A DNA stretch of 64,000 nucleotides from Owenia fusiformis (taxonomy: Eukaryota; Annelida; Polychaeta; Sabellida; Oweniidae), in assembly GCA_903813345.2 (NCBI GenBank), contig CAIIXF020000004.1:15011196-15075195 (forward strand). The letters are read 5' to 3'. Of the stretch, positions 18,001-57,000 are shown one piece after another (within the stretch, counting starts at the first letter, position 1; every line of letters starts with the position of its first letter). The notes beneath the pieces were generated by a model that had not been told where the DNA came from, did no database searches, and saw only the letters and a program-made list of their open reading frames with translations. The translations under genes and the position numbers were made by a program.

Positions 18001-21000
18001 AAACCACTGATAATATCTGAAGTCCTGACAAGGTCATACAAATGCATATACAAACACTTATGTCCTTAGTACATTTCATTTAATCCTATTGATTAATGTT
18101 TGTTTATCTATTTTTACGAGGATCTTTAGACTCAAAAACAAGTTTGATAATAAGTGCAATGTATAATTAAACATTATATGCTGGGTTAGTTCTACCTTTA
18201 AGCGCTATTGTGTCATTTATACCTTGATGGAAATTTCCTTTTGTGTCTCATACCCTATACAGACATAAACAATGTGATGTGTTTACATAACAGGACAATT
18301 GATGTTCAGAACTCGGTGATAGTAAATAATCACATCATTACCAGGAAAAAACTTTTCTTCCTCATATGTTCAAGATTGATATTTGGTAAAATGTTTAAGT
18401 GAGACAAGTGCCTTTAAGCCTGGCCTCGATAAACCAAGTTCAAGAAATGTGACTCTTCTTAAATAAAATGATTAATTGATTACTTGTTTAACAAAATTTC
18501 CCCTATTATATCGGTCTCTGACTGAATATCAGTCATGAATCATTTTATTCACTCTGTTTTGTTTATCCCTTTTGCAGGCCATGTTGTCCAGTGAGCTAGA
18601 ATATATTTCTGTAGGGGAATTGCATGCATATATACTTCTGACATCAAAGAGAGAGCAATCCATTGAATCAGAATGTAAAATTTTATACTCCTCTTTCAAT
18701 TAAACCATGATCAAGGTCAGATCGATCAGAATTATACATTGCATAGTGAGCTAGTGTTGTTGGGGACTCAATTTTATTGAATTTTCCAAATTGAGAGCAG
18801 CCATTCAGATGTAGAGTAGTATTAACGTCATTAATTTAATGAATTTTCCAGGCCAGATTGCTCAAAATGATGCGCTGCGTACTGAACTAGAAGGTGTTGT
18901 GGAGGGACTCCAGACATATCTTTGCACAAAATGATGCCTTGCGTAGTGAACTAGAGGGTGTTGTAGGTGGACTCCAGACATATCTTCACAATGTTAAACA
19001 GAGGGCAGCCAATCAGAATGAAGCATATAATTCACCTTTAATTCACTTTTATTAATCCATGTTCCAGGCCAGGTTGCACAGAATGATGCATTGCGTAGTG
19101 AACTAGAGGGTGTTGTAGGTGGACTCAAGACATATCTTCACAATGTTAAACAGAGGGCAGCCAATCAGAATGAAGCATATAAGTCACTGCAGAATGAGAA
19201 GGATGCATTAGAGGAAAGATTACATAACCTTGAGAAGGAGATGGGCATCATGGATTCAGAGGCTGGAGGTTATATGAAATTAAGAGAAGTATGTCCAATG
19301 TTTTAAACCTAATAATATTTGATCAGATACTGACTACACATCCTCTGAATATTGGGATTCAGACATCATCTCTCATGTTTCTTCCTGCATTCTGATGATG
19401 CTGAGTACAAAAAATGGACTGTGAACTTTGTAAATTATGTTGTTTGAAATCAACCATATCTTTCTATTGCAATGTGGTTATAGTGTATGCTCTAATGGCC
19501 GGACCACTCGTCATTACCAGGTTACTTAGTTTTCACTAGGTATAGGAAAAAAATTGCAGCTGGTCTGTAATTCCATTTTGACCAGCAACTCTCAGATCCT
19601 TGGGGCATTCATACACGGTGTGGTTACCTCATGAAGTTAGGAAAAATTGTGATATGTAAAAACTTATGCATGAAAAGAAAGATAGAACAAGAGGTCTGTA
19701 TATTTATAAATATATATATACCACTGCTGCCATCTTTCTTTCTGGGCACATTACTCTTGATCATATTGGAGCCAAGTAGTTGTAACATTGATAACATTGA
19801 TGTAGCTGCTGTCTTTTCCTTTTCTACGACTGGTTTACTCTTAAACTTGTTCCAGTGGCCTCATGGATATAGGCACTGGACTGCTGCACCAGCTTTTGGT
19901 GGATCGAATCCCGGTCATGCCCAAGATTTTTTTCTCTTTTATTTATCTCTGTGCCACAATATTTTATTTAGATCTCTTTTTATGATGTTTTCTTTTTTTG
20001 CTGTGTTCTGTAACAATTTTTGGTTATTTTCCTTTAGGACACTGTACCTACACATTGGAGACATAATCAAAACACAATCCATTGAGCCTCATGGTTATAA
20101 TAAAATGCTATGTATTTAATGAAATGGATTGCAATATATTTTTCAGAAATTGCATAACCTTGAAGTATCCTTACATACAAAAGATGAAGAAAATCAGATG
20201 CTGAAATCACAGCTTGATGAAACACTCTCTGCTGATGCAAACATTGATCGTGACATAAAATTAGCTCAAGAAGAAATTGAGGCTCTGAGACATAGCCTTA
20301 AAGCAGCAGAACAAAAATCAATGGCTGATAAACAAGTTTTGTTAAATAAACTTGAAAATGAACAAAAGAGGGCAGCACAGGCTGTTGATAAATTAAAACA
20401 GGTAGATGTTGGAAAAGATATGATGGCCAACAGAATAAAGGAGCAACTTGAACACATGCAGGCTAGTGTATATTTTTCAATTGTCTCATGTCATTCCATT
20501 CCCTTATGTGTAATTCTATTGCTTTATCTGTAATAGCATTGCCTTTTGGTAATTTTATTGATTTATGTGTAATTCCATTGCATCATGTAAAATCCCATCA
20601 CCACATACATAATTCCATTGCCTTGTATCAATTTTATTCCCTCATATTTACCTCCATTGTGTTGTGTTCTGCCATACAACATATTTGATTCCATTTCCCA
20701 ATGTGTAATTCCATTGTCTTTTGTGTAATTCCAGGCAGCTAACACAGAGCTTCAATCCCAGTTACAAGAAAGAGACAATGAGATCCAAGAGTTACTCAAC
20801 AAGTCAACCCAGCCTCAACATATTCAACAGAAACTACAGGACATGATGGAAAGCATTGATGCAGGCCAGGTGTGTTCATCTAAAAATTAAATCATTCTCA
20901 ATGCCACCATTTCTTTCCTTATTTTATTTACATACTGTACTCCCAGTAATTTTCGCGCGCTACCATATTTTGCTAGATTAGGAAAATTCGTATAATAGCC

Positions 21001-33000: not shown

Positions 33001-36000
33001 GTTTGAGAAGGGATTTTCAAGATGGCAGCTAAATTTCAAAATGGCCGCCATTTTTCATAAAAGAATGTAACCTTTGATAAAAGTACCAGTTGATAGATTT
33101 GGATTAAATACATATGCTGATGCCTTTGGACATAGGAGCTCTGCTAAAGGAGAAATCTAAAGACAACAGCTGAATTTCAAAATGGCAACCATGTTTCATA
33201 AAAACACAGTCTTTGATAATTCAAATACCAGTGGATGGATTTGGCTCAAATTTTATATGGCTGCTATTTACCAAACAAATATTATATGGCTGCTATTTAC
33301 CAAAACATGTTTTGTTCGGTGGGATTTGCTACTCCGTGGAGTTTTTCTAGTTAGCAAATAAAACAGTTATTTTAATAAAAAGGTTGTTTAAAGTGACAGT
33401 GTTTTTCTTCAATGTTAGAGATAAGTCAAAGCTCCTAGATCCTAAAAATTTTCATTCAGAACAAGAAATAGTTGAGAGGACCACTGAAAAGAACCAGTTA
33501 TCCGAGGCCTTGAATATGTCTTATGTAGAGCTACAGAATTTAAGAGCACAGATAACACAGGTAGGTTTAAATTGATTGTTAATATGATCCTGGTTGGACA
33601 ATATTTGGACTTTTTTTTTATTATTATGATATGTACAAATCAGTGTAACTTTTATAAGATTTGAAATAATATATTACACATACTATGGACACATTGGTAT
33701 ATCTCTGCCTAGGGGGGGGGGGGCATACTTTCAGGACACCCTGTAAATGATATATTTCATGAATAGTCTGAGTTAATCAACCAAATTCCTTTTGCTGTTT
33801 GAAGATTATAAAATATTAAAAATGTAAAAGAAATTCTGAAAATGTTATCTTTATAATTGAACTATATCTACTATGTTAATGTTTTACTACTTTTACAACA
33901 CGTTGCTTAAACTATTTTCATTTTATTTCCATTATATAGGATGGTGTCTTGAGGATGGAGCAAATCCATGATTTAGAATCTGAATTAGAGGCAGTCAGGG
34001 AGCAACTACGTGCAACGACAAAGGTAGTGTGCTTTATTTCACATTTATATCCTGTTCTATCACATTAATTCAAGTGGATTATAATCACTACTCTGTACTG
34101 TATTTTGTAAAATCATTCAGCATCTACAACTTCAAAACCTCCAAGAACTATAAAGGACGGGTGTCATTAAGGGCCCTTTTTAGCCCCCAAAGATATCTGA
34201 TAATAATGCATATCATATTGAAGAAAAATCTTTTGTGCTTTATAAAAATACAATTTCAGCAAATTTTGACCTTTGATGTTCACATAAGTCATTTAAAGAT
34301 CATATACCATTTTGGTGTTTTTAAAAAAAAATTCTTTATTTATTGTTGTCTAAGTAAATAGTAAATAAATATTAACCATTTTAAATATATTAAAATGTAA
34401 TATATGAAATACTGAAGAAAAGATACGATTAAAATTATTTTCATGGAAAAGCACAAAGGGCAATATTGACAAAATGCAAATGCTATTTTGGTAGGTTCTG
34501 GGCTAGCAATGGGTACATTTCAACTGTGACTGTAATGGATTACTATTGACTTTTATCAACATCACAGGGCAACATTTAAGCAACTTAAATACAAGGAAAA
34601 TCAAAGATTTCCTCTCATTTCTAAAACGAGGAACAAAAGCATGAATTCAAGGAAAACTAGATGTATAAGATTGCAAGCAATCTTACGGAGGCCCCGTAGG
34701 CTTTTTTGAACATTTAAAGGTCAGCCAAAGGTCAAATCTTAAAAACAAGGTCATATATGAACTCCAGGCATCTTGTAGATGATTTTAAAAAAAAAAGTTT
34801 GGTCAATTTGAAGCAATGTGAAATTTGACCTTGAAAAATTTCAACATTAGACCTTTTTCAGTTTTTGAGGTCCAATATCTCAAAACTGGGGCAGAATTTA
34901 AATAGCTAATCAATTGTTAATATGTGTAAAATCTTGAGAGGAATATATATCCTGACTTTAGTTCAAAAATATTGATTTGTAGTCACAAACTTTGAGAAAC
35001 ACAGTTTGTGATCTTGTTTGATGACCTTGATCTTGAAAATTTTACTTTTTTAGACCTCAGTATATCTTTTCTGATTGAATAAACCTAAATTTGAATCCAG
35101 AAACTCAATTTGAAAAATCAACTTTTTGACATTTCGAAGGTCACTGAAGGTCAAATAAAGGTCATAGGTCAAAACTAAGGTCAGATTTGAGTTTCTGAGA
35201 TCTTGTAGATGCTTTTTAAAAAAAAATTGGTCAATTTAGAGCAAGTTGAAATTTGACCTTGAATCTTCGAAATTTGACCTTTTTTCAGTTTTTGAGTTCT
35301 AATATCTCAAAACTGGAGCAAAATTTTAATAAATAGTCAATTGCTAATATGTGTAGAACCTTTAGAGGAATATATATTCTGACTTTCAGTAAAAAAAAAT
35401 AGATTTGTAGTCTCCAATTTTGAGAAACTTAGAAAACACAGTTTGTGATTTCATTTGATGACCTCGACCTTTGACCTTGCAAATTTTACTTTTTTAGACC
35501 TCAGCGGGTCTTTCGTGAATAAATATACCTAAATTTGAATCCAGAAAATCGAGTTGAAAAATCAACTTTTTTGACCTTTCGGAGGTCACTGAAGGTCAAC
35601 CAAAGGTCAAAGGTCAAAAGTAAGGTCAGATTTGGAATCCTGAGAACTTGTAGATGAGTTTTTAAAAAAAATTTGGTCAATTTGAAGCAAGTTGAAATTT
35701 AGTCTTGAAAAGTTTCGAAATTTGACCTTTTTTCAGTTTTTGAGTTCTAATATCTCAAAACTGGTACACAATTTTAATAAATAGTCAATTGCTAATATGT
35801 GTAGAACCTATAGAGGAATATATATCCTGACTTTCATGAAAAAATATTGATTTGTAGTCACCAAAACTTAGAAACTTAGAAAACACAGTTTGTGATTTAG
35901 TTTGATGACCTTGACCTTTGACCTTGCAAATTTTACTTTTTTAGACCTCAGTGGGTCTTTTGTGATCAAATGCACCTAAATTTGAATCCAGAAAATCAAT

Positions 36001-39000
36001 TTGAAAAATCAACTTTTTTGACCTTTCGAAGGTCACTGAAGGTCAACCAAAGGTCACAGGTCTAAAGTAAGGTCAGATTTGGAATCCTGAGAACTTGTAG
36101 ATGAGTTTTAAAAAAAAATTTGGTCAATTTGAAGCAAGTTGAAAAAAGACCTTTTTTGACCTTTTTTTGACCTTCAATATCTCAAAATCTAGGCAGAATT
36201 TGTCTAGACGGCAAAGGCTAAGACTAATAGAATACTAATATCTATCTGTATGCAAAAATTCAGCCAAAAATATTGAAGTGTAGTGTCAGGATTTGAGAAA
36301 CTTAAAAAAAACTTAGATTTGACCTGGATTTTGACCTTTGACCTTGACCTAGATAAAAATTCCTTTCCCCTTAAGTTCAACCTAGGTCCCTTGTAGGTTT
36401 ATATAGTAGATAGTTGAAATCTAGTTGGAAGTAGGAGAAAAAGTGCAGAGAAGAATAAATAACTAGACTTTTGAAGATTGCAAGCAATCTCACGGAGGCC
36501 CTCTTAGGCATTTTTGACAATTTGACGGTCAACTAAAGGACAAATATCAAATCTGAGGTCAGATGTGAACTCCTGAGAACTTGTAGATGATTTTCAAAAA
36601 AAGATTTTGTCAATTTGAAGCGAGTTTAAATTTGACCTTGAAAAATTTCTAAATTGACCTTTTTTCAACTTTTGAACTCTTATATCTCAAACTGGGACAA
36701 AATTCTATTAAATAGTCAATTGCTAATATGTGTACAACCCTTAGAGGAATGTGTATATTTCGACTCCGGATTAAAAATATTGGTTTGTAGTCGAACTTTG
36801 CGAAACTTAGATAGCACAGTTTGTGACCTAATTTCATGAACTTGACCTTTGACCTTGAAATTTTTACTTTTTTAGACCTCAGTAGGCTTTTTGTAATTAG
36901 ATTGACCTAAATTTGAATCCAAAGACTCAATTTGAAAAATCAACTTTTCTTACCTTTCGAAGGTCACTGAAGGTCAACTAAAGGTCAAAGGTCAAATCTG
37001 AAGTCAGATTTGGACTCCTGGGAACTTGTAGATGATTTTTAAAAAAACATTTGGTCAGATTGAAGAAAGTTGAAAAATGACCTCTTTTGACCGTTTTTTG
37101 ACGTCAAATATCTCAAAAACGGTAAAAATTTAATGCTGACATACAGTGAACAATTTGTAGAGAATACTTAAATGTAGTTTCAGTTTAATTCATCGCAAGA
37201 AATAATGAAGTATAATGACAAACTTGAAAAAAAGCTTAGATTTGACCTAGATTTTGACCTTTGACCTTGACCTAGATATGAAATATTTTCCCATCAAGAT
37301 CAAACCAGGTATCTAGTAGGAGCATATAGTAGAAAGTTGAAAGCTAGTTGAAAGTAGGAGAAAACTGCTTTGATAGAATAATAACTAGACTTTGGAAATT
37401 GAACGAAGTTCAATTTCAGACTCCAGATCTAGATTTTTTAAGCCCAGTCATCTAAAATAAGCCGAGTCATCCAGAATAAGCTGAGTCATCCAGAATAAGA
37501 TGGATGGATAAAATAGGAAGGTAGAATAGGACAGAATGGAAAGGAACGATAGGATAGGATAAGAAAGAAGGATAGGATAGAACAGAATAGGAAGAAAGGA
37601 TATGATAGGAGAGGATAGGAAGGATAGGAAGGAAAGGATAGGATCAGATAGGAAGGATGGATGGATGAATTTTTCAATATTTTCTTCTCTACTCTTGACT
37701 TCTATCAGGATACCATAAGATCAATTTTCCGAAATTTCAAAACGCCACAACTTCCAAACCGGAAGTCGGATCGAAAGTTGATTAAAAGATTCGGATTCCT
37801 GACAAAATTCTACCCCTAATTCATAACTCATACGTTAAATTTGGCAATTTTTTATTTTGACCTACTTTTTGGACACGCCATAACTTCGGAACCGGAAGTC
37901 GAATCGAAATTTCGTTTGCAGATTCGGATTTCTGAGAAAATTCTATTCTTAATTCATAACTCAAACGTTAAATTTGGAGTATTTTTTATTTTGACCTACT
38001 TTTCGGACACCATATCTCAAAAGTGGGTAAAAATACTCTCTGACGGCAAAAGGCTAACACTATTAGCACACTCTTTGCTACATCTATACACAATTTCGAA
38101 GAATATAATTAAAGTGTAGTGTCAGAATCGCAAAAATAAGGAAAAACTTTGATTTTGACCTAGATTTTGACCTAGCATTTTGGTGTCCAAATTTTGAATC
38201 TAGATGGCTTTTGAGGTTCCATTCTTTCAAAAGCTTTCACTATATTAAGCTGAACTCAGTCTATATTTCGTATTTTTCACTTCAAAAAAATCTTTTTTCC
38301 CATTGACTTAACATGGGCACCAAATTTAGCGATTTTTGAGCTTTCAAAATGCCATAACTTCCGAACCGGAAGTCCGATCCAAATTTGGTTTGCAGATTTG
38401 GATTTCGAAGATCATTCTACACTTATTTCATAATTCACATGTTGAATTTGGAGAACTTTCTGTTCTGACCTACTTTCCGGACGCCATATCTCAAAATCGG
38501 TAACAGTAATCAAAAATCTGATGGCACACTTATGAAAGGGCTGTTTCTAAGCTACATGATGAAAAAAAGACAAAGTTGTTCCGATAAATAACGACGAAGA
38601 TAATAGACAGAAGGTTGAAAATGTAAGATTTGACCTAGTTCTTGACCTTTGACCTAGATAAAAATTTGACCCAATTTCCCACCAACTAGATACTGAACCT
38701 AAATAAAATGTATAATGGTCTTTACTGGATACCTTATAGTTATTGAAGAAACTCAAAAAGAAAAATAAGAAGAATAACTAGACTGGGGAAATTGAACAAG
38801 TTCAATTTCAGACTCCAGATGACAGTTCTTCTGGGGTTTTTAGAAAGACAGATGGATGGACGGATGGAAGGACGGACTGGCTGGACTTGGACTGGACCTT
38901 GACTGGATTTGAACCTTGACTGGATTGAACCTGGGCTGGTCTTGGACTGGACTTAGACTTGGACTGCACTTGGACCTGTACTGGCCTTGGAACTGGACTG

Positions 39001-42000
39001 GAAATTGACCTGAACCTGGACTTTGACTGGACTGTAACCTGATCTGGACTAGGACCGGGACCTGTAAATGGACTGGACAGTTATTTTTTCGATTTTTTCT
39101 TCACTTCTCTTGACTTTCTATAAGGCTATCATCAGATCGATTGTTCTCGAAATTTCAAAATGCCATAACTTTTGAACAGGAAGTCAGATCGAAATTTGAT
39201 TTGCAGATTCGGATTCCTGAGAAAATTCTATCCTTAATTCATAACTCATACGTTAAATTTGGAGAACTTTTTATTTTGACCTACTTTTCGGACACGCCAT
39301 AACTTCCAAACCGGAAATTGGATTGAAATTTTGTTTGCAGATTCGGATTCCTGACAGAATTCTACCCTTAATAATAACTCATATATGAAATTTGGAAAAC
39401 TTTTTATTTTGACCTACTTTTCGGACACCATATCTCAGAAGTGGGTCAAAATACTTTCTGACGGCAAAAGGCTAACACTATAAGCCCACTCTTGGCTACA
39501 TATATACACAATTTCGAAGAATATAGTTAAAGTGTAGTGTCAGAATCGCAAAAATAAGGATAAATTATGAATTTGACCTAGATTTTGACCTAGGGATTTT
39601 GGTGTCCAAATTTTGAAGTTAAGTAGCCTTCAAGGTCCCCCTCTTTCATAGGCTTTCATTATTTTAAGCTGTACTTAGTCTATATCTCGTATTTTACACT
39701 TCAAAAAAATATTTTTTCCCATTGCTATAACATGGGGCACCAAATTTAGCGATTTTTGAGCTTTCAAAACGCCATAACTTCCGAACCGGAAGTCCGGTCG
39801 AAATTTGGTTTGCAGATTCGGATTCCTGAGAAAATTCTATACTTAATTCATAACTCAAGCGTTAAATTTGGAGAATCTTTTATTTTGACCTACTTCTCGG
39901 ACACCATATCTCAAAAGTGGGGCAAAATACTCTCTGACGGCAAAAAGCTAACACTATTAGCACACTCTTGGCTACATGTATACTAAATTTCGAAGAATAT
40001 TATTAAAGTGTAGTGTCAGAATCGCAAAAATAAGGAAAAACTTTGAATTTGACCTAGATTTTGACCTAGGCATTTTGGTGTCCATATTTTGAAGCTAGAT
40101 GGCTTTTGAGGTGCCATTCCTTTAAAGGCTTTCATTATATTTAGCTGAACTCAGTCTATATTTCGTATTTTTCACTTCAAAAAAATCTTTTTTCCCATTG
40201 ACTTAACATGGGCACCAAATTTAGAGATTTTTGAGCTTTCAAAACGCCATAACTTCCGAACCGGAAGTCGGATCCAAATTTGGTTTGCAGATTCGGATTC
40301 CTGAGATCATTCTTCACTTATTCCATAACTCACATGTTGAATTTGGAGAACTTTTTGTTCTGACCTACATTCTGGACGTCATATCTCAAAATCGGTAAGA
40401 GATATCAAAAAATAAAATCGACAATGTCCTAACCTACTTTTTTATTAGGAACACAATGAAAAAAACCCGGATCAAAAATATTGAAGGACGACCGAGAAAA
40501 TCGAAAAAAGTAACAAAGTACTGGATTTGACCTAGTTCTTGACCTTTGACCTAGATAAAAATTTGACCCCATTTCCCACCAACTAGATACTGAACCTTAA
40601 TTGACCATATAATTGTCTTGAAAAGATACCTCATAGTTGTTGAGAAAACGTGATCAGTATAAGAATAATAAGAATAATAACTAGACCTGGGAAATTGAAC
40701 AAGTTCAATTTCAGACTCCAGATTCTTCTGGGTTTTTAGAAAGACAGATGGACAGACGGATGGAAGGACGGACTGGCTGGACTTGGACTGGACCTTGACT
40801 GGATTTGAACCTTGACTGGATTGAACCTGGGCTGGTCTTGGACTGGACTTAGACTATACTTGGACCTGTACTGGCCTTGGAACTGGACTGGAATTGACCT
40901 GAACCTGGACTTTGACTGGACTGGAACCTGATTTGGACTAAGACCTTGACTTGGACCTGTAAATGGACTGGACAGGTATTTTTTCGATTTTTTTCTTCAC
41001 TTCTCTTGACTTTCTATAAGGCTATCATCAGATCGATTTTTCTCGAAATTTCAAAATGCCATAACTTTTGAACAGGAAGTCTGATCGAAATTTGATTTGC
41101 AGATTCGGATTCCTGAGAAAATTCTATCTTTAATTCATAACTCATACGTTAAATTTGGAGAACTCTTTATTTTGACCTACTTTTCGGACACACCATAACT
41201 TCCGAACCGGAAGTCGGATTGACATTTGGTTTGCAGATTCGGATTCCTGACAGAATTCTACCCTTAATTCATAACTCATATGTTCAATTTGGAAAACTTT
41301 TTATTTTGACCTACTTTTCGGACACCATATCTCAAAAGTGGGCCAAAATACTTTCTGACGGCAAAAGGCTAACACTATTAGCCCACTCTTGGCTACATAT
41401 ATACACAATTTCGAAGAATATAATTAAAGTGTAGTGTCAGAATCGCAAAAATAAGGATAAACTATGAATTTGACCTAGATTTTGACTTAGGGATTTTGGT
41501 GTCCAAATTTTGAAGTTAAGTAGCCTTCAAGGTCCCCTTCTTTCATAGGCTTTCATTATTTTAAGCTGTACTTAGTCTAAATCTCGTATTTTACACTTCA
41601 AAAAAATCTTTTTTCCCATTGCCATAACATGGGGCACCAAATTTAGCGATTTTTGAGCTTTCAAAATGTCATAAGTTCCAAACCGGAAGTCGGATCGAAA
41701 TTTGGTTTGCAGATTCGGATTTCTGAGGAAATTCTATACTTAATTCATAACTCAAACGTTAAATTTGGAGAATTTCTTATTTTGACCTACTTTTCGGACA
41801 CCATATCTCAAAAGTGGGGCAAAATACTTTCTGACGGCAAAGGGCTATCACTATTAGCACACTCTTGGCTACATGTATACAAAATTTAGAAGAATATAAT
41901 TAATCTGTAGTGTCAGAATCGCAAAAATAAGGAAAAACTTTGAATTTGACCTAGATTTTGACCTAGGCATTTTGGTGTCCAAATTTTGAAGCTAGATGGC

Positions 42001-45000
42001 TTTTTAGGTCCCATTCTTTTAAAGGCTTTCATTACATTTAGCAGAACTCGGTCTATATTTCGTATTTTTCACTTCAAAAAAATATTTTTTCCCATTGACT
42101 TAACATGGGCACCAAATTTAGCGATTTTTGAGCTTTCAAAACGCCTTAACTTTCGAACCGGAAGTCCGATTTGAATTTGGTTTTCAGATTCGGAATCCTG
42201 AGAAAATTTCCTATAAGACTTATATCATGGACATTTGATTCGGAGAACTTTTTTTTAGACCTCGTTTTCGGACACTGATATCTCGAAATCGGTTCGAGAT
42301 ATCAAAAATCTAAATCGTATTGCGTTTTTCTACTTTTTTATGAGGAACACAATGAAAAAAACCCGGATCAAAAATATTGAAGGACGACCGAGATAATGGG
42401 AAAAAGTGACAAAGTACTGGATTTGACCTAATTCTTGACCTTTGACCTAGATAAAAATTTGACCCCATTTCCCACCAACTAGATACTAGACCTTATTTGA
42501 CCATATAATAGTCTTGAAAAGATACCTTATAGTTATTGAGAAAACTTGGGCAGTAAAATAATAAGAATAAGAAGAATAAGAATAAACAAAAGAGGCAAAA
42601 ACAATAGACTCCAGATTTCATCTGGAGTCTAATAAACAATAATGGCAAAAACAATAGACTCCAGATTTCATCTGGAGTCTAATAAGAAGAATACTGGCAA
42701 AAGCAATAGACTCCAGATTGACATCTGGAGTCTAATAAGAAGAACTAGACTGGGGAAATTGAACAAGTTCAATTTCAGACTCCAGATCTAGACGTTTTTA
42801 AGCCCAGAACAGAATAAGCCGAGTCATCCAGAATAAGCTGAGTCATCAAAAATAAGCTGAGTCATCCAGAAAAAAGATTGATGGATGGATTTAATAGGAA
42901 GGAAGAATAGGATAGGAAGGAAAAATAGGATAGAATAGGAAAGAAGGATAGGACAGGATAGAATAAGAAAGAAGGATAGGATAGGTTATGAAGGATAGCA
43001 AGGAAATGATGAGAAGGAAGGATAGATAGAAGGGATATGAAAGAATGGGAAGGAACGATAGGATAGAATAGGAAACAAGGATACGATAGAATAGAATAGG
43101 AAGGAAGGATAGGATAGGAAGGAAGGGTAGATAGGAAGGACAGGATCAGACAGGATAGGAAGGAACGACGGGTGCATTTTTCAATATTTTCTTCGCTACT
43201 CTTGACTCTCTATCAGGATACCATCAGATCGATTTTTCCCGAAATTTCAAAATGCCACAACTTTCGAACCGGAAGTCGAATCGAAATTTGGTTTGCAGAT
43301 TCGGATTCCTGGGGAAATTCTTCCTGTAATTCATAACTCACACGTTCAATTTGGAGAACTTTTTATTTTGACCTACTTTTCGGACACCATATCTCAAAAG
43401 TAGGTCAAAATACTTTCTGACGGCAAAAGGCTAACACTATAAGCACATTCTTGGCTACATGTATGCAAAATTTCAAAGAATATAATTAAAGTGTAGTGTC
43501 AGAATCGCAAAAATAAGGAAAAACTTTGAATTTGACCTAGATTTTGACCTAGGCCCTGGACTGGATTTAGACCTAGACTTGACTTGGATCTGGACCAACA
43601 CTGGGCTTGGACCCGGACTGGATCTTGACTTGGACCTGGAAATGGACTGGACTGGAATGTTTTCATTTTTTTCACTTTTCTTGACTTTCTATAAGGGTAC
43701 CATCAGATCGATTTTTCTTGAACTTTCAAAACGTCATAACTCTTGAACCGGAAGTCGGATTTCAATTTGGTTTTCAGATTCGGAATCCTGAGAAAATTTC
43801 CTATAAGAATGATATCCTAGACATTGGATTCGGAGATTTTTATTTTGGACCTCGTTTTCGGACACTGATATCTCGAAATCGGTTTGAGATATCAAAAAAC
43901 TAAATGACATTCTTAATACTACTTTTTTATGAGGAACACAATGAAAAAAAACCGGATCAAAAATATTGAAGGACGACTGAGAAAATCGAAAAAAGTGACA
44001 AAGTACTGGATTTGACCTAGTTCTTGACCTTTGACCTAGATAAAAATTTGACCCAATTTCCCACCAACTAGATACTGAACCTAAATGAACTGTATTATGG
44101 TCCTAACTGGATACCTCATAGTTATTGAAAAAACTCCCAAAGAATAATAATAATAACTAGATTTTGGAAATTGAACAAGTTCAATTTCAGACTCCAGATC
44201 TAGATTTTTTTAGCCGAGTCATCCAGAATAAGCCAAGTCATCCAAAATAAGCTGAGTCATCCAGAAAAAGATGGATGGATGGATGGATGAAAAAGGAAGG
44301 AAGGATAGGAAAGAATCATAGAATAGAATAGGAAGAAGGGATAGAATAGGAAGGATAGGAAGGAGAGGATACGAAGGAAAGGTAGATAAGAAGGATACGA
44401 TAGGATCACAAAGGAAGGATGGATGCATTTTTCAATATTTTCTTCTCTACTCTTGACTTTCTATCAGGATACCATCAGATCAATTTTTCTCGAAATTTCA
44501 AAACGCCATAACTTTCGAACCGGAAGTCGGATCGAAATTTGGTTTGCAGACTCGGATTCCTGAGAAAATTCTTCCTTTAATTCATAACTCATATGTTAAA
44601 TTTTGAGAACTTTTTATTTTGACCTACTTTTCGGATACCATATCTCAAAAGTGGGTCGAAATACTTTCTGACGGCAAAAGGCTAACACTATTAGCACACT
44701 CTTTCCTACCTGTATACAAAATTTTGAAGCAAATCATTTAAATATAGTGTCAGAATCACAAAAATGAGGAAAAACTATGAATTTGACCTAGATTTTGACC
44801 TAGGGATTTTGGTGTCCAAATTTTGAAGTTAGGTAGCCTTCGAGGTCCCCTTCTTTCATAGGCTTTCATTATTTTAAGCTGTACTTAGTCTATATCTCGT
44901 ATTTTACACTTCAAAAAAATCCTTTTTCCCATTGACATAACATGGGGCACCAAATTTAGCGATTTTTGAGCTTTCAAAATGTCACAACTTCCGAACCGGA

Positions 45001-48000
45001 AGTCGGATCGAAATTTGATTTGCAGATTCTGATTCCTGAGAAAATTCTATACTTAATTGATAACTCAAACATTAAATTTGGAGATTTTTTTATTTTGACC
45101 TACTTTTCGGACACCATATCTCAAAAGTGGGTCAAAATACTTTCTGACGGCAAAAGGCTTACACTATTAGCACACTCTTGGCTACATGTATACAAAATTT
45201 CGAAGAATATAATTAATCTGTAGTGTCAGAATCGCAAAACTAAGGAAAAACTATGAATTTGACCTAGATTTTGACCTAGGCATTTTGGTGTCCAAATTTT
45301 TATGAAAAGAAGGTTTTGAGGTCCCTTTCTTTTATGGGCTTCCATTATGTTTAGCTGTGCTTAGTCTATATCTCGTATTTTACACTTCAAAAAATATTTT
45401 TTCCCATTGAATTAACATGGGGCACCAAAATTAGCGATTTTTGAATTTTCAAAACGCCATAACTTCTGAACGGGAAGTCAGATCGAAATTTGGTTTTCAG
45501 ATTCGGAATCCCGAGAAAATTTCCTATAAGACTGATATCCTGGACATTGGATTCGGAAAACCGAATTTTTGGACCTCTTTTTCGGACACTGATATCTCGA
45601 AATCGGTTTGAGATACCAAAAAACTATATCACTCTAGATTTTCTACTTTTTTATGAGGAACACAATGAAAAAAAACCGGATCAAAAATATTGAAGGACGA
45701 CTGAGAAAATCGAAAAAGTGACAAAGTACTGGATTTGACCTAGTTCTTGACCTTTGACCTAGATAAAAAATTGACCCAATTTCCCACCAACTAGATACTG
45801 AACCTAAATAAACTGTATTATGGTTCTTACTGGATACCTCATAGTTACTGAAAAAACTCCCAAAGAATAATAATAACTAGACTTTGGAAATTGAACGAAG
45901 TTCAATTTCAGACTCCAGATCTAGACTTTTTTAAGCCCAGTCATCTATATATAAGCCGAGTCATCCAGAATAAGCTGAGTCATCCAGAATAAGATGGATG
46001 GATAAAATAGGAAGGTAGGATAGGATAGAATGGGAAGGAACGATAGGATAGAATAAGAAAGAACGATGGGATAGAACAGAATGGGAAGAAAGGATATAAT
46101 AGGAGAGGATAGGAAGGAAAGGATACGAAGAAAGGATAGATAGGAAAGATAGGATAGGATAGGATCAGATAGGAAGGATGGATGAATTTTTCAATATTTT
46201 CTTCTCTACTCTTGACTTTCTATCAGGATACCATCAGATCGATTTTCCGCAATTTCGATTTAAAGATTCGGATTCCTGACAAAATTCTACCCCTAATTCA
46301 TAACTCATACGTTAAATTTGGCGAATTTTTATTTTGACCTACTTTTTGGACACGCCATAACTTCGGAACCGGAAGTCGGATCGAAATTTGGTTTGCAGAT
46401 CCGGATTTCTGAGAAAATTCTACCCCTAATTCATAACTCAAACGTTAATTTTGGAGAACTTTTTATTTTGACCTACTTTTCGGACACCATATCTCAAAAG
46501 TAGGTCAAAATACTTTCTGACGGCAAAAGGCTAACACTATTAGCGCACTCGTGGCTACATATATACACAATTTTGAGGAATATAATTAAAGTGTAGTGTC
46601 AGAATCGCAAAAATTAGGAAAACCTTTGGATTTGACCTAGATTTTGACCTAGGGAGTTTAGTGTCCAAATTTTGAAGCTAAGTAGCCTTCGAGGTCCCCT
46701 TCTCTTATAGACTTTCATTATGTTAAGCTGTACTCAGTCTATATCTCGTATTTTACAGTTCAAAAAATCTTTTTTGCCATTAACATAACATAGGGCACCA
46801 AATTTAGCGATTTTTGAGCTTTCAAAACGCCATAACTTCCAAACCGGTAGTCGAATCGAAATTTGGTTTGCAGATTTGGATTCCTGAGAAAATTTTATCC
46901 TTAATTCATAACTCATACATTGAATTTGGAGAACTTTTTATTTTGACCTACTTTTCGGACACCATATCTCAAAAGTGGGTCAAAATACTTGCTGACGGCA
47001 AAAGGCTAACACTATTAGCACACTCTTGTCTACACGTATACACAATTTCGAAGAATATAATTAAAGTGTAGTGTCAGAATCGCAAAAATAAGGAAAAACT
47101 TTGAATTTGACCTAGATTTTGACCTAGGCCCTGGACTGGATTTGGACCTAGACTTGGCTTGGACCTGGACAAACACTGGAATCAGACCTGGACTGGACCT
47201 TGACTTGGACCTGGAAATGAACTGGACTGGTATTTTTTCAATTTTTTTCACTTTTCTTGACATTCTATAAGGGTACCATCAGATCGATTTTTCTCGAACT
47301 TTCAAAATGCCATAACTCCTGAACCGGAAGTCAAATTCCAATTCGGTTTTCAGATTCAGAATCCTGAGAAAATTTCCTATAAGACTAATATCCTGGACAT
47401 TGGATTCGGAGAACTTTTTTTCGGACCTCGTTTTCGGACACTGATATCTCGAAATCGGTTCGAGATATCAAAAATCTAAATCGTATTGCGTTTTTCTACT
47501 TTTTTATGAGGAACACAATGAAAAAAACCCGGATCAAAAATATTGAAGGACGACCGAGATAATGAGAAAAAGTGACAAAGTACTGGATTTGACCTAGTTC
47601 TTGACCTTTGACCTAGATAAAAATTCGACCCAATTTCCTACCAACTAAATACTGAACCTAAATAAACTGTATTATGGTACTTACTGGATACCTCATAGTT
47701 ACTGAAAAAACTCCCAAAGAATAATAAGAATAAGAATAATAACTAGACTTGGGAAATTGAACGAAGTTCAATTTCAGACTCCAGATCCAGACTTTTTTAA
47801 GCCCAGTCATCTAAAATAAGCCGAGTCATCCAGAATAAGATGGATGGATAAAACAGGAAGGTAGGATAGGATAGAATGGGAAGGAACGATAGGATAGAAT
47901 AAGAAAGAAGAATAGGATAGAACAGAATAGGAAGAAAGGATATGATAGGAGAGGATAGGAAGGATAGGAAGGAAAGGATACGAAGGAAAGATAGGATAGG

Positions 48001-51000
48001 ATAGGATCAGATAGGAAGGATGGATGAATTTTTCAATATTTTCTTCTCTACTCTTTACTTTCTATCAGGATACCATCAGATCGATTTTCCGAAATTTCAA
48101 AACGCCATAACTTCCGAACCGGAAGTCGGATCTAAATTTGATTTAAAGATTCGGATTCCTGACAAAATTCTACCCCTAATTCATAACTCATACATTAAAT
48201 TTGGCAAATTTTTATTTTGACCTACTTTTTGGACACGCCATAACTTCGGAACCGGAAGTCGGATCGAAATTTGATTTGCAGATTCGGATTTCTGAGAAAA
48301 TTCTATTCTTGATTCATAACTCAAACGTTAAATTTGGAGAACTTTTTATTTTGACCTACTTTTTGGACACCATATCTCAAAAGTGGGTCAAAATACTTTC
48401 TGACGGCAAAAGGCTAACGCTATTAGCACACTCTTGGCTACATGTATACACAATTTCGAAGAATATAATTAAAGTGTAGTATCAGAATCGCAAAAATAAG
48501 AAAAAAACTTTGAATTTGACCTAGATTTTGACCTAGGCATTTTGGTGTCCAAATTTTAAAGCTAGATGGCTTTTGAGGTCCCATTCTTATAAAAGCTTTC
48601 ATTATATTTAGCTGAACTTAGTCTATATTTCGTATTTTTCACTTCAAAAAAATCTTTTTTCCCATTGACTTAACATGGGCTCAAAATTTAGCGATTTTTG
48701 AGTTTTCAAAACGCCATAACTTCAGAACCGGAAGTCTGATCTAAATTTCGTTTTCAGATTCGGAATCCTGAGAAAATTTCCTATGAGACTTATATCCTGG
48801 ACATTTGATTCGGAGAACTTTTTTTTGGACCTCATTTTCGGACACTGATATCTCGAAATCGGTTTGAGATATCAAAAAACTAAATCGACCTTAGGTTTTC
48901 TACTTTTTTATAAGGAACACAATGAAAAAAACCCGGATCGAAAATATTGAAGGACGACTGAGAAAATTGAAAAAAGTGACAAAGTACTGGATTTGACCCA
49001 GTTCCTGACCTTTGACCTAGATAAAAATTTGACCCAATTTCCCACCAACTAGATACTGAACCTAAATAAACTGTATTATGGTCTTTACTGGATACCCCAT
49101 AGTTACTGAAAAAACTCCCGAAGAAGAATAATAATAAGAATAATAAGAATACTGGCAAAAACAATAGACTCCAGATTTTCAATCTGGAGTCTAATAAGAA
49201 TACTGGCAAAAACAATAGACTCCAGATTTTCAATCTGGAGTCTAATAATAAGAATACTGGCAAAAACAATAGACTCCAGATTTTCAATCTGGAGTCTAAT
49301 AAGAAGAACTAGACTTTTGAAGATTGCAAGCAATCTCACGGAGGCCCTCTTAGGCAATTTTGACAATTTGAAGGTCAACTAAAGGACAAATATCAAATGT
49401 GAAGTCAGCTTTGGACTCATGGGAACTTGTAGATGATTTTAAAAAAAAAATTGGTCAGATTTAAGCAAGTTGAAAAATGACATTTTTCGACCGTTTTTTT
49501 ACGTCAAACATCTCAAAAACGGTAAAAATTTAATGCTGACATCTAGTGAACAATTTGTAGAAAATACTAAAATGTAGTTTCAGTTTAATTCATCGCAAGA
49601 AATAATGTAGTATAAGGACAAAGTTGAGAAACTTAAAAAAAATTAGATTTGACCTAGATTTTGACCTTTGACCTAATTTGATAACCGTGACCCTTGACCT
49701 TGAAAATATTACTGTTTTAGAGCTCAGTAGGTCTTTTATGCTTAGGCTAACCCTAAATTTGAATCCAAAAACTCGATTTGAAAAATCAACTTCTCTGACC
49801 TTTCGAAGGTCACTGAAGGTCAACTAAAGGTCAAATGTCAAATCTGTGGTTAAATATGAACTCCTGAGAAGTTGTAGATGATTTTCAAAAAAAAATTGGG
49901 TGAATTTGAAGCAAGTTAAAATTTGACCTTATAAACTCTGAAAAATTAACCTTTTTCAGTTTTTGAGCTCTTATATCTCAAAACTGGGACAAAATTTTAA
50001 TAAATAGTCAATTGCTAATATGTGTAGAACCCTTAGGGGAATGTATATCTTGACTTTCAATTAAAAATATTGATTTGTAGTCTTGAACCATGAGAAACTT
50101 AGATAGCACAGTTTGTGACCTAATTTGATGACCTTGACCTTTGACCTTAAAATTTTTACTTTTTTAGACCTCAGTAGACTTTTTGTAATTAGACTGACCT
50201 AAATTTGAATCCAAAAACTCAATTTGAAAAATCAACTTTTCTGACCTTTCGAAGGTCACTGAAAGTCAACTAAGGGTCAAAGGTCAAATCTGAGGTCAGA
50301 TTTGGACTCCTGGGAACTTGTAGATGATTTTTAAAAAAAAATTTGGTCAAATTAAAGCAAGTTGAAAAATGACCTTTTTTGACCGTTTTTTGACGTCAAA
50401 TATCTCAAAAACGGTAAAAATTTAATGCTGACATATCGGGAACAATTTGTAGAGAATACTTAAATGTAGTTTCAGTTTAATTCATCGCAAGAAATAATGA
50501 AGCATAAGGACAAACTTGAGAAACTTGAAAAAAAACTTAGATTTGACCTAGATTTTGACCTTTGACCTTGACCTAGATATGAAATATTTTCCCATCAAGA
50601 TCAAACCAGGTATCTAGTAAGAGCATATAGTAGAAAGTTGAAAGCTAGTTGAAAGTAGGAGAAAACTGCTTTGATAGAATAATAATAAGAAGAATAAGAA
50701 TAAGAATAATAAGAACTAGACTTTTAAGATTGCAAGCAATCTCACGGAGGCCCTCTTAGGCATTTTTGACAATTTGAGGGCCAACTTGAGGTCAAATGTC
50801 AAATATGAGGTCAGCTGTGAACTCCTGAGAACTTGTAGATGAATTTTAAAAATAGATTTGGTCAATTTGAAGCAAGTTTAAATTTGACCTTGAAATTTTT
50901 TGAAATTGACCTTTTTTAAATTTTTGAGCTCTTATATCTCAAAACTGGGACAAAATTCTATTAGATAGTCAATTGCTAATATGTGAAGAACCCTTAAGGA

Positions 51001-54000
51001 ATGTATATTCTGACTTTTGAATAAAAATATTGATTTGTAGTCTCGAACTTTGAGAAACTTAGATAACACAGTTTGTGACCTAATTTGATGACCTTGACCA
51101 TTGACCTTGAAAATTTTACTCTTTTAGACCTCTGTAGGTCTTTTGTAATTAGGCTGACCTAAATTTGAATCCAAAAACTCAATTTTAAAAATCAACTTTT
51201 CTGACCTTTGGAAGGTCCCTGAAGGTCAACTAAAGGTCAAATGGCAAATCTGAGATTACTTCTGAACTCCTGAGAAGTTGTATATGATTTTTAAAAAAAA
51301 ATTGGGTCAATTTGAAGCAAGTTAAAATTTGACCTTATAAAATTTGAAAATTTGACCTTTTTCAGTTTTTGAACTCTTATATCTCAAAACTGGGACAAAA
51401 TTTTAATAGATAGTCAATTACTAATATGTGAAGAACCCTAAGAGGAATCTTTACCCTGAGTTTCAATTAAAAATATTGATTTGTAGTCTTGAACTATGAG
51501 AAACTTAGATAGCACTGTTTGTGACCTAATTTGATGACCTTGACCTTTGACCCTGAAAAGTTTTACTTTTTTAGACCTCAGTAGGTCTTTTGTAATTAGG
51601 CTTACCTAAATTTGAATCCAAAGACTCAATTTGAAAAATCAACTTTTTTTAGGTTTCGAAGGTCATTGAAGGTCAACTAAAGGTCAAAGGTTAAATCTGA
51701 GGTCAGATTTGGACTCCTAGGAACTTGTAGATGATTATTAAAAAAAAATTGGTCAGATTGAAGCAAGTTGAAAAATGACCTTTTTTGACCGTTTTTTGAC
51801 GTCGAATATCTCAAAAATAGTAAAAATTTAATGCTGACATATTGTGAACAATTTGTAGAGAATACTAAAATGTAGTTTCAGTTTAATTCATCGCATGAAA
51901 TAATAAAGTATAAGGACAAACTTGAGAAACTTGAAAAAAAATTTAGATTTGACCTAGATTTTGACCGTTGACCTAATTTGATAACCGTGACCCTTGCCTT
52001 GAAAATTTCACTGCTTTAGAGCTCAGTCGATTAGGCTAACCCTAAATTTGAATCCAAACACTCAATTTGAAAAATCAACTTTTCTGACCTTTCGAAGGTC
52101 ACTGAAGGTCAACTAAAGGTCACATGTCAAATCTGAGGTTAAATATGAACTCCTGAGAAGTTGTAGATGATTTTAAAAAAAAAGTTGGGTGAATTTGAAG
52201 CAAGTTAAAATTTGACCTTATAAACTTTAAAAAATTGACCTTTTTCAGTTTTGAGCTCTTATATCTCAAAACCTGGACAAAATCTTAATAAATAGTCAAT
52301 GACTAATATGTGTAGAACCCTCAGAGGAATGTACATCTTGACTTTCAATTAAAAATATTGATTTGTAGTCTTGAACTATGAGAAATTTAGATAGCACATT
52401 TTGTGACCTAATTTGATGACCTTGGCCTTTGACCTTGAAATTTTTACTTTTTTAGACCTCAGTAGGCTATTTGTAATTAGACTGACTTAAAGTTGAATCC
52501 AAAGACTCAATTTGAAAAATCAACGTTTCTGACCTTTCGAAGATTTGACCTTATAAACTTTAAAAATTGACCTTTTTCAGTTTTGAGCTCTTATATCTCA
52601 AAACTGGGACAAAATCTTAAATGTAGTTTCAGTTTAATTCATCGCAAGAAATAATGAAGTATAAGGACAAATTTGAGAAACTTGAAAAAAAATTTAGATT
52701 TGACCTAGATTTTGACCTTTGACCTAATTTGATAGCCGTGACCCTTGACCTTGAAATTTTTACTGTTTTAGAGCTCAATGGGTCTTTAATGATTAGGCTT
52801 ACCCTAAATTTGAATCCAAAAACTCAATTTGAAAAATCAACTTTTCTGACCTTTCGAAGGTCACTGAAGGTCAACTAAAGGTCAAATGCCAAATCTGGGG
52901 TCAGATGTGAACTTTTGACAACTTGTAGATGATTTTGAAAAAAAAGATTGGTCAATTTGAAGCAAGTTAAAATTTGACCTTATAAACTTTGAAAAATTGA
53001 CCTTTTTCAGTTTTTGAGCTCTTATATCTAAAAACTGGGACAAAAATTTAATAAATAGTCAAGGACTAATATGTGTAGAACCCTTAGAGGAATGTATATC
53101 TTGGCTTTCAATTGAAAATATTGATTTGTAGTCTCAAATTATGAGAAACTTAGATAGCACAGTTTGTGACCTAATTTGATGACCTTGACCTTTGACCTTG
53201 AAATTTTTACTTTTTAAGACCTCAGTAGGCTTTTTGTAATTAGGCTGACCTAAATTTGAATCCAAAGACTTAATTTGAAAAATCAACTTTTCTGACCTTT
53301 CGAAGGTCACTGAAGGTCAACTAAAGGTCGAATGTCAAATCTGAGGTTAAATATGAACTCCTGAGAAGTTGTAGATGATTTTTAAAAAAAAGTTGGGTGA
53401 ATTTGAAGCAAGTTAAAATTTGACCTTATAAACTTTTAAAAATTGACCTTTTTCAGTTTATGAGCTCTTATATCTCAAAACTGGGACAAAATTTTAATAA
53501 ATATTCAATGACTAATATGTGTAGAACCCTTAGAGAAATGTATATCTTGACTTTCAATTAAAAATATTGATTTGTAGTCTTGAACTATGAGAAACTTAGA
53601 TAGCACAGTTTGTGACCTAATTTGATGACCTTGACCTTTGACCTTGAAATTTTTACTTTTTTAGACCTCAGTAGGCTTTTTGTAATTAGACTGACCTAAA
53701 TTTGAATCCAAAGACTCAATTTGAAAAATCAACTTTTCTGACCTTTCGAAGGTCACTGAAGGTCAACTAAAGGTCAAAGGTCAAATCTGAGGTCAGATTT
53801 GGACTCCTTGGAACTTGTAGATGATTTTGAAAAAAAAAATTGGTCAGATTGAAGCAAGTTGAAAAATGACCTTTTTTGACCGTTTTTTGACGTCAAATAT
53901 CTCAAAAACGGTAAAAATTTAATGCTGACATATAGTGAACAATTTGTAGAGAATACTTAAATGTAGTTTCAGTTTAATTCATCGCAAGAAATAATGAAGT

Positions 54001-57000
54001 ATGATGACAAACTTGAGAAACTTAAAAAAAACTTAGATTTGACCTAGATTTTGACCTTTGACCTTGACCTAGATAAAAAATATTTTCCCCCCTATTCCAG
54101 CCAAGGTTACTAGTAGGATCATATAGTAGGTAGTTGAAAGGTAGTTGGAAGTAGGAGAAAAATGCTTTGGAAGAATAATAAATAAAGAATAAAGAATAAG
54201 AATAAAGAAAAGCTACAAAAGCTATAGGAGGCCCTTTCAGGAGGGCCTCCTAATAATAAAGAAAAGCTACAAAAGCTATAGGAGGCCCTTTCAGGAGGGC
54301 CTCCTAATAATAATAATATCTATAAAATTAATAGGAGGCCCTCCGTTGGGGCCTCCTAATAAATGATGGCCTGTGCCAAAATATATAACATATGAGAAAG
54401 TTGTGGCACAGTAAAGGATATGTATAGGATATCATATGATTTTAAATGATTTTATCTTTATCTCCGAGTTGATATCAATATAGTTAGCATAGCGAATTAG
54501 CGCAGATATTGATATCAATGAGTTGGATTAACACAATATCACGAAAATTCATAGGATGTTCTATTTTTCCCATAGTTCACCTCTAAAACTAAACAAAGCA
54601 TATCAAAACAACATCCATTCATTCATTCATCCCCTTGATGTCATAAAATCACTATGTAACAAAACATATCATATTGGTGGTAGTTTTCAAATCCCTGCCG
54701 GTGATATCTGTGAAATATTTTCCGTATTCCACAGATATCACTTTTTCCACGCATTTGCCATCCTCCGTACGCAGGGTTTCAAAATCCAGAATATCTTCTT
54801 CCTTTCTACAGTAGCACTTTTACTGTAAGAAGGAGGTACGGATTCTTGAAGCCTGCTAAGGAGGATGCGCATTTGCAAAATATCATAAATATGTTTTCAT
54901 GTTACCTAGCAGAGCGGAACAGAGTTCAACTATGGGATAAAGAATAAAAAATAGGTACATACTTGAATTACCACTCCAAAAATATTAAATATGAGGGTTT
55001 AAAGAAAGAATATTGAATATGAGATTCAAAAAGACAAGTGGCCTCATGTCTCACATTACCCAAACCCCAGATCATCGATGTCATATATACTTGAATACTG
55101 TATATCAATGTTATTTACTGGGAGGATTAAATATGGAGTGTATAGCAATGGTCTATACGATATTTCCAGATGGATATTTTTCCCTAGAAGCGGAACCCAA
55201 ACTCAGTCATGACATTGAAGCTAACTTTTGCAATTAATAGAAACTTGTTTTTTATTATATTTTTTGTGTTCTATATTTGTGATGAAATGATATGAGATTC
55301 ATTTCCACAAGAAGATGGAATGAATGTGACCATGTATATTGAACTATACTCCTTTTCTGAATAAATAGAACAACATTTTATCCAAGCCAAATAAGAAAAC
55401 CAAGGCCAATGAGTGTAATTTATGTCCAGTTAAACTAACACAATAACAACTTTTTGTCTGGACTCACTTATTATGTAAGAATGAATTGTATTACTGTTTA
55501 CTGCATTAAATGTCAAGTATACTATCTGTATTTAATTTCAAATGACTATCTCACTTATCGAAGGTATACAAGAAATGTTATTTTGAAACAAATTCAGCAC
55601 AACCAAAACCATGTCCACATAATATGACAAATCCAAGATGGCTGCCACAATTTTAGATCCATGCACATGTGAAGAAGTTAGAAATACACATGGTCCACAA
55701 GTTCTATCCCAAATAAAATGGGAAGTTTAAGGTTTTCACACATATCAACTCTATTCCTATATACTTTATATTTGTGGTTAGGCTTGTGATCTAGGTAAAC
55801 TTAGCATGTTCATGTACCTCCTATCCTCTGAAGCTAAAAACAGAAATAGTGACTTCAATTGAGACAAATGAATCTTATGGGCTCCATATACATTTTGAGT
55901 GGCTGTCCGGCTTAAATTAGATACTACTGATAATCTTAGATTGAAAATTATGTCAAGATTAGTCCTCAGCCTCTCATAACGGATAACTTCGAGGTAATTG
56001 TGTTGTTACTGCAAAAACCTCTATTTCTATGTCCCCTTTCACAGATTTTGTATTACTTTTTTTTAACTCCTTTATGCCTCGAATGTTCTACACACTCATG
56101 GTAACTAAAATCATCATTGTTGCAGCCTAATGTAATTTTTTTCAACTGTCTTTGTCTTCACTGTTTTGGCTCTACTTTTTGTGTATGTAGCCCTTTTATT
56201 CGGTCCCTTTGTAGAATAAAATATCTAAGCACAAGTACCAAAGGGAAAGAACCAAAATCTGTTGAACCTTGCAAAAAAGCAAACTCAAGTGTATAGCAGT
56301 CATAAGAAAAACAAATCCCATATATCCCAGTATGGATGACCCAAAATAGCTTCATTATGTACTGTTACTATTTTAGGAATTAAAGAAGGAAAAACGAACT
56401 GCAGCTAGCCAAATACAAGAACTTCAGACCTTATCACAGGACCACTGTCAACGGGCTAATAGACTGACTGAAGAACTAAATAATCTCCACACTCAATACA
56501 TAGCACTACAAAGAGAGGTATCAGCATTACATTCCCAATTGGCACTATACAGTACTGTAGCAAAAACGGTACCATACAGTACTGTAGCAAAAATGGTACC
56601 ATACAGTTCTGTGGCAAAAACGGTACCATACAGTACTGTAGCGAAAATGGTACCATACAGTACTGTGGCAAAATGGTACCGTACAGAACTGTAGCAAAAT
56701 GGTACCATACAATACTGTTGGAGATTGACTGTGTTAACATGTATCACAATGTATCACTTAAATATTACATTATTCTCATTTAGATTTGAAAACATATCAA
56801 TATCAACTATATTATTTTGAGAAACCAAGATTTCCGTACCAAAAATGATCAGTATCTATATATTTTGAACAAAATTATAACATTTTCATTCCTAAGTACA
56901 ATTTGTTCAATAAATGCTATGATTCAGTTGTAGAGTGGGGTAAATATGTAATCGAAGTCGAAATAATACAAAGATTAGGACTAAGATAAGAGCTAATATT

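Follow-up and report, generated by a model that had tools for sequence, protein, structure and literature searches.

HINEs, which are non-autonomous Helentrons, are built of a 5′ subterminal inverted repeat (subTIR), a complementary inverted repeat, a microsatellite, central repeats, a 3′ subTIR and a palindrome (PMC7492417, PMC4067079). In mites, the 3′ subTIR is placed at 38–60 nt and the palindrome at 8–35 nt, near the 3′ end. The proto-Helentron-Pi element of Phytophthora begins with TT, ends with CTAG and inserts between A and T (PMC4067079). Helitrons lying directly adjacent to one another are described in bat and maize (PMC4067079), and inner copies of tandem Helitrons are often truncated (PMC7492417). 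In Fusarium, self-insertion and composite Helitrons have been described (PMC5148889), while the SaTar MULEs of guayule and rice form microsatellite-targeting arrays that are reported as uniformly non-nested (PMC5907723). These systems are compared here with an array in the annelid Owenia fusiformis (assembly GCA_903813345.2; 498 Mb, 525 contigs), located in a 64,000-nt stretch of contig CAIIXF020000004.1 (C4; positions 15,011,196 to 15,075,195), hereafter the window.

The original prediction described this array as a modular repeat of two families, A and B, in which each unit has a palindromic head, a variable number of subunits and a tail, with three tandem hairpins as the ending at three places. 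The modular repeat is most likely a stack of small non-coding rolling-circle transposons, inserted in one direction beside one another's end. With high confidence, the stretch can be described as a nest of non-autonomous elements of the Helitron2/Helentron type, the ends of which are paired last in, first out.

Paired ends and their nesting

Searched genome-wide, the exact head patterns matched 557 times for A and 1423 times for B, and the hairpin patterns 113 and 2654 times, respectively; both ends were found to mark dispersed copies. The control, which was the reversed pattern of each end, gave 0 matches for the A and B ends and for the heads of a third family; the end patterns are therefore not a product of chance. 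This third family, C (66 exact heads genome-wide), obeys the rule of A and B with other words: its head is AAATCGCC..GGCGATTT with GAATGCCG, and its hairpin is GAATGCCG..CGGCATTC. Two hairpins, one from each of families A and B, fold far better than shuffled sequences (z −5.4 in A and −7.3 in B, with 0 of 200 shuffles equal for each of the two). Folding of the B head palindrome is weaker (z −2.6; 3 of 200 shuffles as good), and that of the A head is no better than in shuffles (z −0.4; 66 of 200 as good). Some heads of subtype A2 carry a 14-bp palindrome twice, 21 bp apart, on the minus strand (J4 5658 and 10921; J7 2669), an arrangement which recurs genome-wide.

A head and a hairpin together delimit one element, and such elements are dispersed through the genome. 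Isolated copies consist of one head and one hairpin (L009, L010, L012, L015, L016, L019), and the 46 uninterrupted copies span about 1.1–4.4 kb. The distance from a single A1 hairpin to the nearest A1 head is mostly about 1.85, 2.25 or 2.7 kb, that is, it grows in steps of approximately one 447-bp subunit. The reading as a single long element that contains the subunits and ends in three hairpins was rejected, because isolated copies have one of each end. The triple hairpin proposed earlier as the ending of a unit is thus replaced by a stack formed by the ends of nested copies.

The order of the ends was analysed in bracket notation, in which the head opens, the hairpin closes and the family or subtype gives the type of bracket. 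The 32 stitched loci contain 105 heads and 97 hairpins, and the nesting test covers the 22 loci with at least three ends. The multi-head loci were chosen non-randomly, from the first listed places on contigs C1 and C2. The short, redundant loci L001–L008 were excluded from the parse, and two candidate hairpins that lack a TA directly after them (J9 22981 and window 38811) were dropped before the count. Heads and hairpins are balanced in J1 (9/9), J2 (5/5), J7 (4/4), L018 (3/3) and in L013, L014 and L028 (2/2 each). They are nearly balanced in J9 (12/11), the window (11/9), J3 (7/6), J10 (3/2) and J11 (5/4), and less so in J4 (9/7, the last head being near the edge of the stretch), J5 (4/5), J6 (5/2) and J8 (4/1). 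Balance was not judged for the smaller loci cut by an edge (L011, L017, L020–L023, L025–L027).

At the level of families, all 79 of the 79 possible pairs are nested. Permutation of the hairpin labels within loci gives a mean of 69.9 (standard deviation 1.7, maximum 75 in 1000 permutations), and shuffling of the order instead of the family labels gives a mean of 52.8 and a maximum of 65. When the ends are typed by subtype, 74 of 79 pairs are nested, compared with a permuted mean of 55.1 and a maximum of 62. The nests reach a depth of six. In 31 loci, all 105 heads are on the strand of the locus and none on the opposite one. The subtypes also differ in their position within a nest, with A1 found within A2 in eight parent–child pairs and the reverse in none, and B1a found within B1b in four and the reverse in none.

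A separate sample was formed by all 99 exact A1 hairpins and 100 of the 101 exact A1 heads, from which exclusion of the loci already studied left 76 hairpins. Of these 76 hairpins, 64 have an A1 head on the predicted side, at most 30 kb upstream and on their own strand; the downstream side gives 5 of 76 and the opposite strand, on either side, 0 of 76. The mean number of upstream heads is 1.73 for the 11 stacks of at least two hairpins and 0.98 for the 49 single hairpins (Mann–Whitney P 0.007); an upstream head is missing for 10 of the 49 single hairpins and for one of the 11 stacks. The stricter last-in-first-out matching pairs 54 of the 76 hairpins, while its mirror control pairs five.

In the join test, the nested element is removed and its flanks are joined and aligned to other copies. 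Such joins from 35 of the 53 nested pairs give a one-piece alignment through the uninterrupted end of another copy, with 69–99% identity (at least 90% in 25 of the 35). This result bears on the published explanation of tandem Helitron arrays, namely the bypass of termination (PMC4067079, PMC7492417). Rolling-circle replication past the termination signal would form concatemers in one step, with inner copies missing one end, and such an origin fits J8 and J6, where heads outnumber hairpins. Concatemers predict one repeated subtype and few hairpins, whereas these arrays show an alternation of families and subtypes, the missing hairpins are for the most part found in stacks and pair in nested order, and the joined flanks rebuild intact ends. 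One-step formation of the arrays is thus very unlikely. A satellite-like array generated by unequal crossing over or segmental duplication, with hairpins multiplied by local tandem duplication, is hardly credible. Adjacent units up to 96% alike in J8 and an even series of six hairpins on contig C12 are in agreement with it, but it fails to predict the isolated two-ended elements, the empty sites and the type-matched nesting. For the nest itself, cross-locus alignments spanning several heads are compatible with composite transposition and repeated nesting alike; alignment does not separate the two, because nests join at the same tail.

Anatomy, orientation and target of the elements

The elements read best on the minus strand, which places the 3′ end at the head and the 5′ end at the hairpin, the reverse of the orientation first proposed. 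In this direction, six of six copies from families A, B and C show TTAG, a palindromic subTIR, a microsatellite, central repeats, a 3′ subTIR, a palindrome and CTAG. In all six, a distance of 3 nt separates the 5′ subTIR from the 5′ terminus (2–4 nt in HINEs), and its complementary inverted repeat follows at a gap of 3–12 nt, again in all six (in HINEs the subTIR is palindromic or has such a repeat 1–12 bp away). The microsatellite beside the 5′ module is the AAT/AAG-rich tail, and the central tandem repeats have periods of 447 and 476 bp. The 3′ subTIR lies 24–36 nt and the palindrome 6–13 nt from the 3′ CTAG in six of six copies, in the order of HINEs and at shorter distances than in mites. 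The termini are those of proto-Helentrons, with 5′ TT, 3′ CTAG, insertion between A and T and no target duplication, apart from the two-base slide described below. Canonical Helitrons share the 3′ CTRR with a hairpin about 11 nt upstream (here CTAG and the palindrome), the insertion between A and T and the lack of duplication. The elements thus combine HINE anatomy with proto-Helentron termini. The original prediction of non-autonomous Helitron/Helentron-type elements is supported by the occurrence of both ends on dispersed copies, the CTRR-type ends, the target compatible with insertion between A and T, the absence of duplication, the subTIRs and the palindromes, and is revised for the tandem-hairpin ending and the orientation.

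The earlier orientation describes the same elements and the same nesting, and is compatible with the nested rolling-circle reading. It assumes a Helitron with 5′ CTAG and a 3′ hairpin ending in CTAA before T, which conforms to CTRR before T and to a target between A and T. In this orientation, the hairpin would stand at the terminus rather than about 11 nt inside, and the palindrome at the 5′ end, while the minus-strand reading matches the HINE order of subTIR, microsatellite and palindrome as well as the proto-Helentron ends. The earlier orientation is considered unlikely.

The outer boundaries show a target compatible with insertion between A and T. Two clean empty sites, at L019 and L015, correspond to the insertion of exactly CTAG...CTAA (TTAG...CTAG on the minus strand) into other repeats, and neither has a target-site duplication. 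The L019 site is 91% identical to J4 over 190 bases, with a gap-free junction. For L015, the joined flanks (300 bases) have matches of at least 297 bases in 40 scored places, and two of the best are 100% identical in exactly 300. For the joined flanks of L012, no whole empty site was found. The host of L015 is an abundant repeat, 97–100% identical in the 40 scored places (e.g., C3:30114852-30115151), with a weaker inverted copy adjoining.

The outer sites have the composition A (23/26), T (18/26), A (26/26), A (26/26) ^ T (26/28), A (23/28), A (27/28), where the left count omits six loci in which an element tail forms the left flank or the left flank lies beyond the sequence analysed. The resulting consensus, ATAA^TAA, is also the motif of the element's own (AAT/AAG)n tail and of the hairpin junction CTAA^TAA. 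On the minus strand, TT is present in 26 of 26 outer sites, and the cut is equally readable as lying between A and T (host A in 26 of 28, T in 26 of 26). The invariant AA on both sides leaves a sliding ambiguity of two bases, in which the element is CTAG...CTAA, ACTAG...CTA or AACTAG...CT, and the cut may therefore fall between A and T or within TT. The target is asymmetric, and insertion into the tail would thus fix the orientation of the new copy, which fits the distribution of heads between strands.

Proposed mechanism and its weighing

In the proposed mechanism, a Rep/helicase provided in trans would act on the element ends, and a single-stranded copy would be inserted at sites between A and T (or TT). 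The (AAT)n pad just inside each hairpin may serve as the landing site for new copies, which could also land beside an older copy. The asymmetric target would lock the orientation of each new copy, and the arrays would grow inwards. Surplus heads, as in J8, could arise when a nest is transposed via one hairpin and the inner palindrome ends are bypassed, or through deletions. A broader idea is put forward tentatively, and the case for it falls slightly short of that against it. It holds that the 5′ microsatellite is a self-target, which locks orientation and lets the family grow by insertion into its own ends; arrays would then be a bracket record of insertion order, and tandem Helitron arrays elsewhere that were put down to termination bypass may be such nests.

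HINEs are characterised by an autonomous Rep/helicase/endonuclease partner that shares their ends, and proto-Helentrons by a Rep/helicase without endonuclease. Potential enzyme sources are present in the genome. There are 58 Helitron_like_N matches, of which 24 lie in open frames that reach 2900 aa or more, and a PIF1 match lies within 6 kb downstream of 44 of the 58 Rep hits (49 of the 62 PIF1 matches entered this comparison). The Rep/PIF1 genes, found on contigs C13, C515, C505 and others, occur several per small contig, and those 24 frames are uninterrupted. The state of these genes suggests recent activity. Rep/helicase elements are thus present in the genome, and none was tied to the ends of the present families. 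A comparison of the positions of A1, A2 and C ends with those of the Rep hits revealed no convincing candidate for the autonomous partner sharing the same ends, for which the original prediction proposed a search. This absence, together with the palindromic ends, would suit another class, such as a foldback or terminal-inverted-repeat DNA transposon or an HUH family such as Replitrons. Such an assignment is highly improbable, given that neither of the two clean empty sites has a target duplication and that the ends are Helitron-like.

Several observations weigh against the nested rolling-circle reading. The heads and hairpins of the window, J6, J8 and J5 are unbalanced, no one-piece join was obtained in 18 of the 53 nested pairs, and a one-piece join also occurs in 6 of 32 pairs counted as outer. 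The subtype rules were set after inspection of the data, and the tests at family level and out of sample thus carry more weight. Where A1 and A2 heads occur near each other in the out-of-sample set, A1 is the inner one in 10 pairs and the outer one in 6, a weak lean. On contig C12 (1566920-1567332, minus strand), six A1 hairpins at 77-bp spacing have only one exact A1 head within 30 kb; this stack is possibly a deep nest with diverged heads, which exact patterns miss, or a local duplication. Divergence gives no firm age signal, as A2 heads are more divergent from one another than A1 heads (0.135 vs 0.051) but lie at a similar distance from their majority sequence (0.030 vs 0.027), and in B the divergence is greater in B1a, the inner subtype, than in B1b (0.105 vs 0.075). 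A greater age of the outer copies is thus not firmly supported by the divergence data. The 5′ TC of the canonical Helitron (Helitron1) is absent, all six copies having 5′ TT, and membership in that class fails for this reason. As to the enzyme, none of the 100 A1 heads listed and none of the 84 A2 heads is within 20 kb of any of the 58 Rep hits; among the 66 C heads, one is about 19 kb from a Rep hit, a doubtful case.

The array in the window and comparison with known systems

The window contains 11 heads and 9 hairpins between 34657 and 54359, all on a single strand (Table 1). The palindromic heads, the head words and the triple hairpins of the original prediction were located, the hairpin arm is identical to the head word, and the subunits, predicted at 440–470 bp, measure about 447 bp in A and 476 bp in B. 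The A head at 34669 and the last hairpin at 54334 belong to a separate subtype, A2, with the head word GGAGGCCCC and a different linker. The junction, predicted as one sequence, is variable and occurs as AATAACTAGAC, AAGAACTAGAC and AAAACTAGAT. The limits of the array were corrected to those of the outermost A2 element, inside which every other part sits.

Two pairings in the window depend on the level of the parse or lack a join. Subtype pairing of head 42757 with hairpin 49272 leaves the B1a head 44169-44186 without a hairpin, and the family-level parse instead assigns that hairpin to head 44169. The own flanks of the B1b element 37385..42735, once joined, give no one-piece alignment.

Table 1. 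Elements, ends and repeats of the array (window coordinates)
Feature	Position	Strand	Details
Outermost element, subtype A2	34657..54359	-	head 34657-34690 is the 3′ end (CTAG); hairpin 54334-54356 plus TAA is the 5′ end
A1 element, 3′ end	36463..36500	-	palindrome 36476-36489, word GGAGGCCCT; 5′ hairpin is 54227 or 54281, or lost
B1b element	37385..42735	-	3′ end 37385, 5′ hairpin 42709-42732; two B elements nested within
B element inside 37385..42735	38778..42682	-	palindrome 38790-38807, hairpin 42657-42679; flanks rejoin as intact element end
Innermost B, first nest	40681..42632	-	palindrome 40693-40710, hairpin 42607-42629; flanks rejoin
B1b element	42745..49299	-	palindrome 42757-42774; paired by subtype with hairpin 49272-49296
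Nested B1b element	45877..49245	-	palindrome 45889-45907, hairpin 49218-49242; flanks rejoin
Innermost B1b, second nest	47743..49194	-	1452 bp; palindrome 47755-47773, hairpin 49167-49191; flanks rejoin
A1 element	49309..54307	-	palindrome 49322-49335, hairpin 54281-54304 (alternatively the hairpin of 36463)
Innermost A1 element	50716..54253	-	palindrome 50728-50741, hairpin 54227-54250; flanks rejoin
Family A central tandem repeats	34717..36144; 50775-52542; 52720-53873	not assigned	period about 447 bp
Family B central tandem repeats	39294..40391; 41193-42208; 44492-45521	not assigned	period 476 bp
AAT/AAG-rich microsatellite	54171..54209	not assigned	beside hairpins; proposed landing pad for further copies
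A heads	34669, 36476, 49322, 50728		
B heads	37397, 38790, 40693, 42757, 44169, 45889, 47755		
Hairpin triplets	42607/42657/42709; 49167/49218/49272; 54227/54281/54334		

Close to their heads, the B elements contain minisatellites of (GGATA)n-like and GGACTGGACTT-like type that vary between copies (37502-37666, 38870-39056 and similar places). Further tandem repeats of the window are a 27-bp array (56540-56718), a 162-bp array (2996-3732) and a 64-bp repeat (18858-18986). Large open frames within or beside other array loci encode a YqaJ-type exonuclease (L020 277-2271) and a reverse transcriptase (L022 2018-4147), and are interpreted as neighbouring or inserted sequences.

The relative order of many transpositions can be read from each nest, and the puzzling modular repeat thereby becomes an insertion history. 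Such nests allow tests of target choice, termination bypass and composite mobilisation from sequence alone. Nesting also offers a cause, alternative to termination bypass, for tandem arrays with inner copies missing one end. The literature searched, which covered few subscription papers, gave no account of balanced nests within a pad carried by the element itself.

HINEs (Cg_HINE of oyster, HINE-Mo of mite, DINE-1) share with the present elements the 5′ subTIR with its complementary inverted repeat, the adjoining microsatellite, the central tandem repeats and the 3′ subTIR with a palindrome after it close to the 3′ end; the absence of target duplication at the two clean empty sites and the TT of the outer sites also agree with HINEs, although the cut may equally lie between A and T. 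They differ in the poly-T target with a variable number of Ts, in place of which the Owenia elements have the target ATAA^TAA, compatible with insertion between A and T, a 3′ CTAG, repeats of 440–470 bp and orientation-locked nesting in the microsatellite. Proto-Helentron-Pi has the same 5′ TT, 3′ CTAG, insertion between A and T and lack of target duplication, but is a 14-kb coding element, whereas no Rep gene is seen in the present ones. The FoHeli composite Helitrons of Fusarium resemble them in self-insertion and in composites in which one terminus is present several times and the other once; for FoHeli, a single nested case and several composites are described, compared with a depth of up to six and type-matched ends here. 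The SaTar elements likewise form arrays of non-autonomous elements via microsatellite targeting, but are non-nested MULEs, in contrast to these nested arrays of rolling-circle type. What is new in comparison with known rolling-circle elements is the proposed self-carried, orientation-fixing pad and the arrays built by readable nesting.

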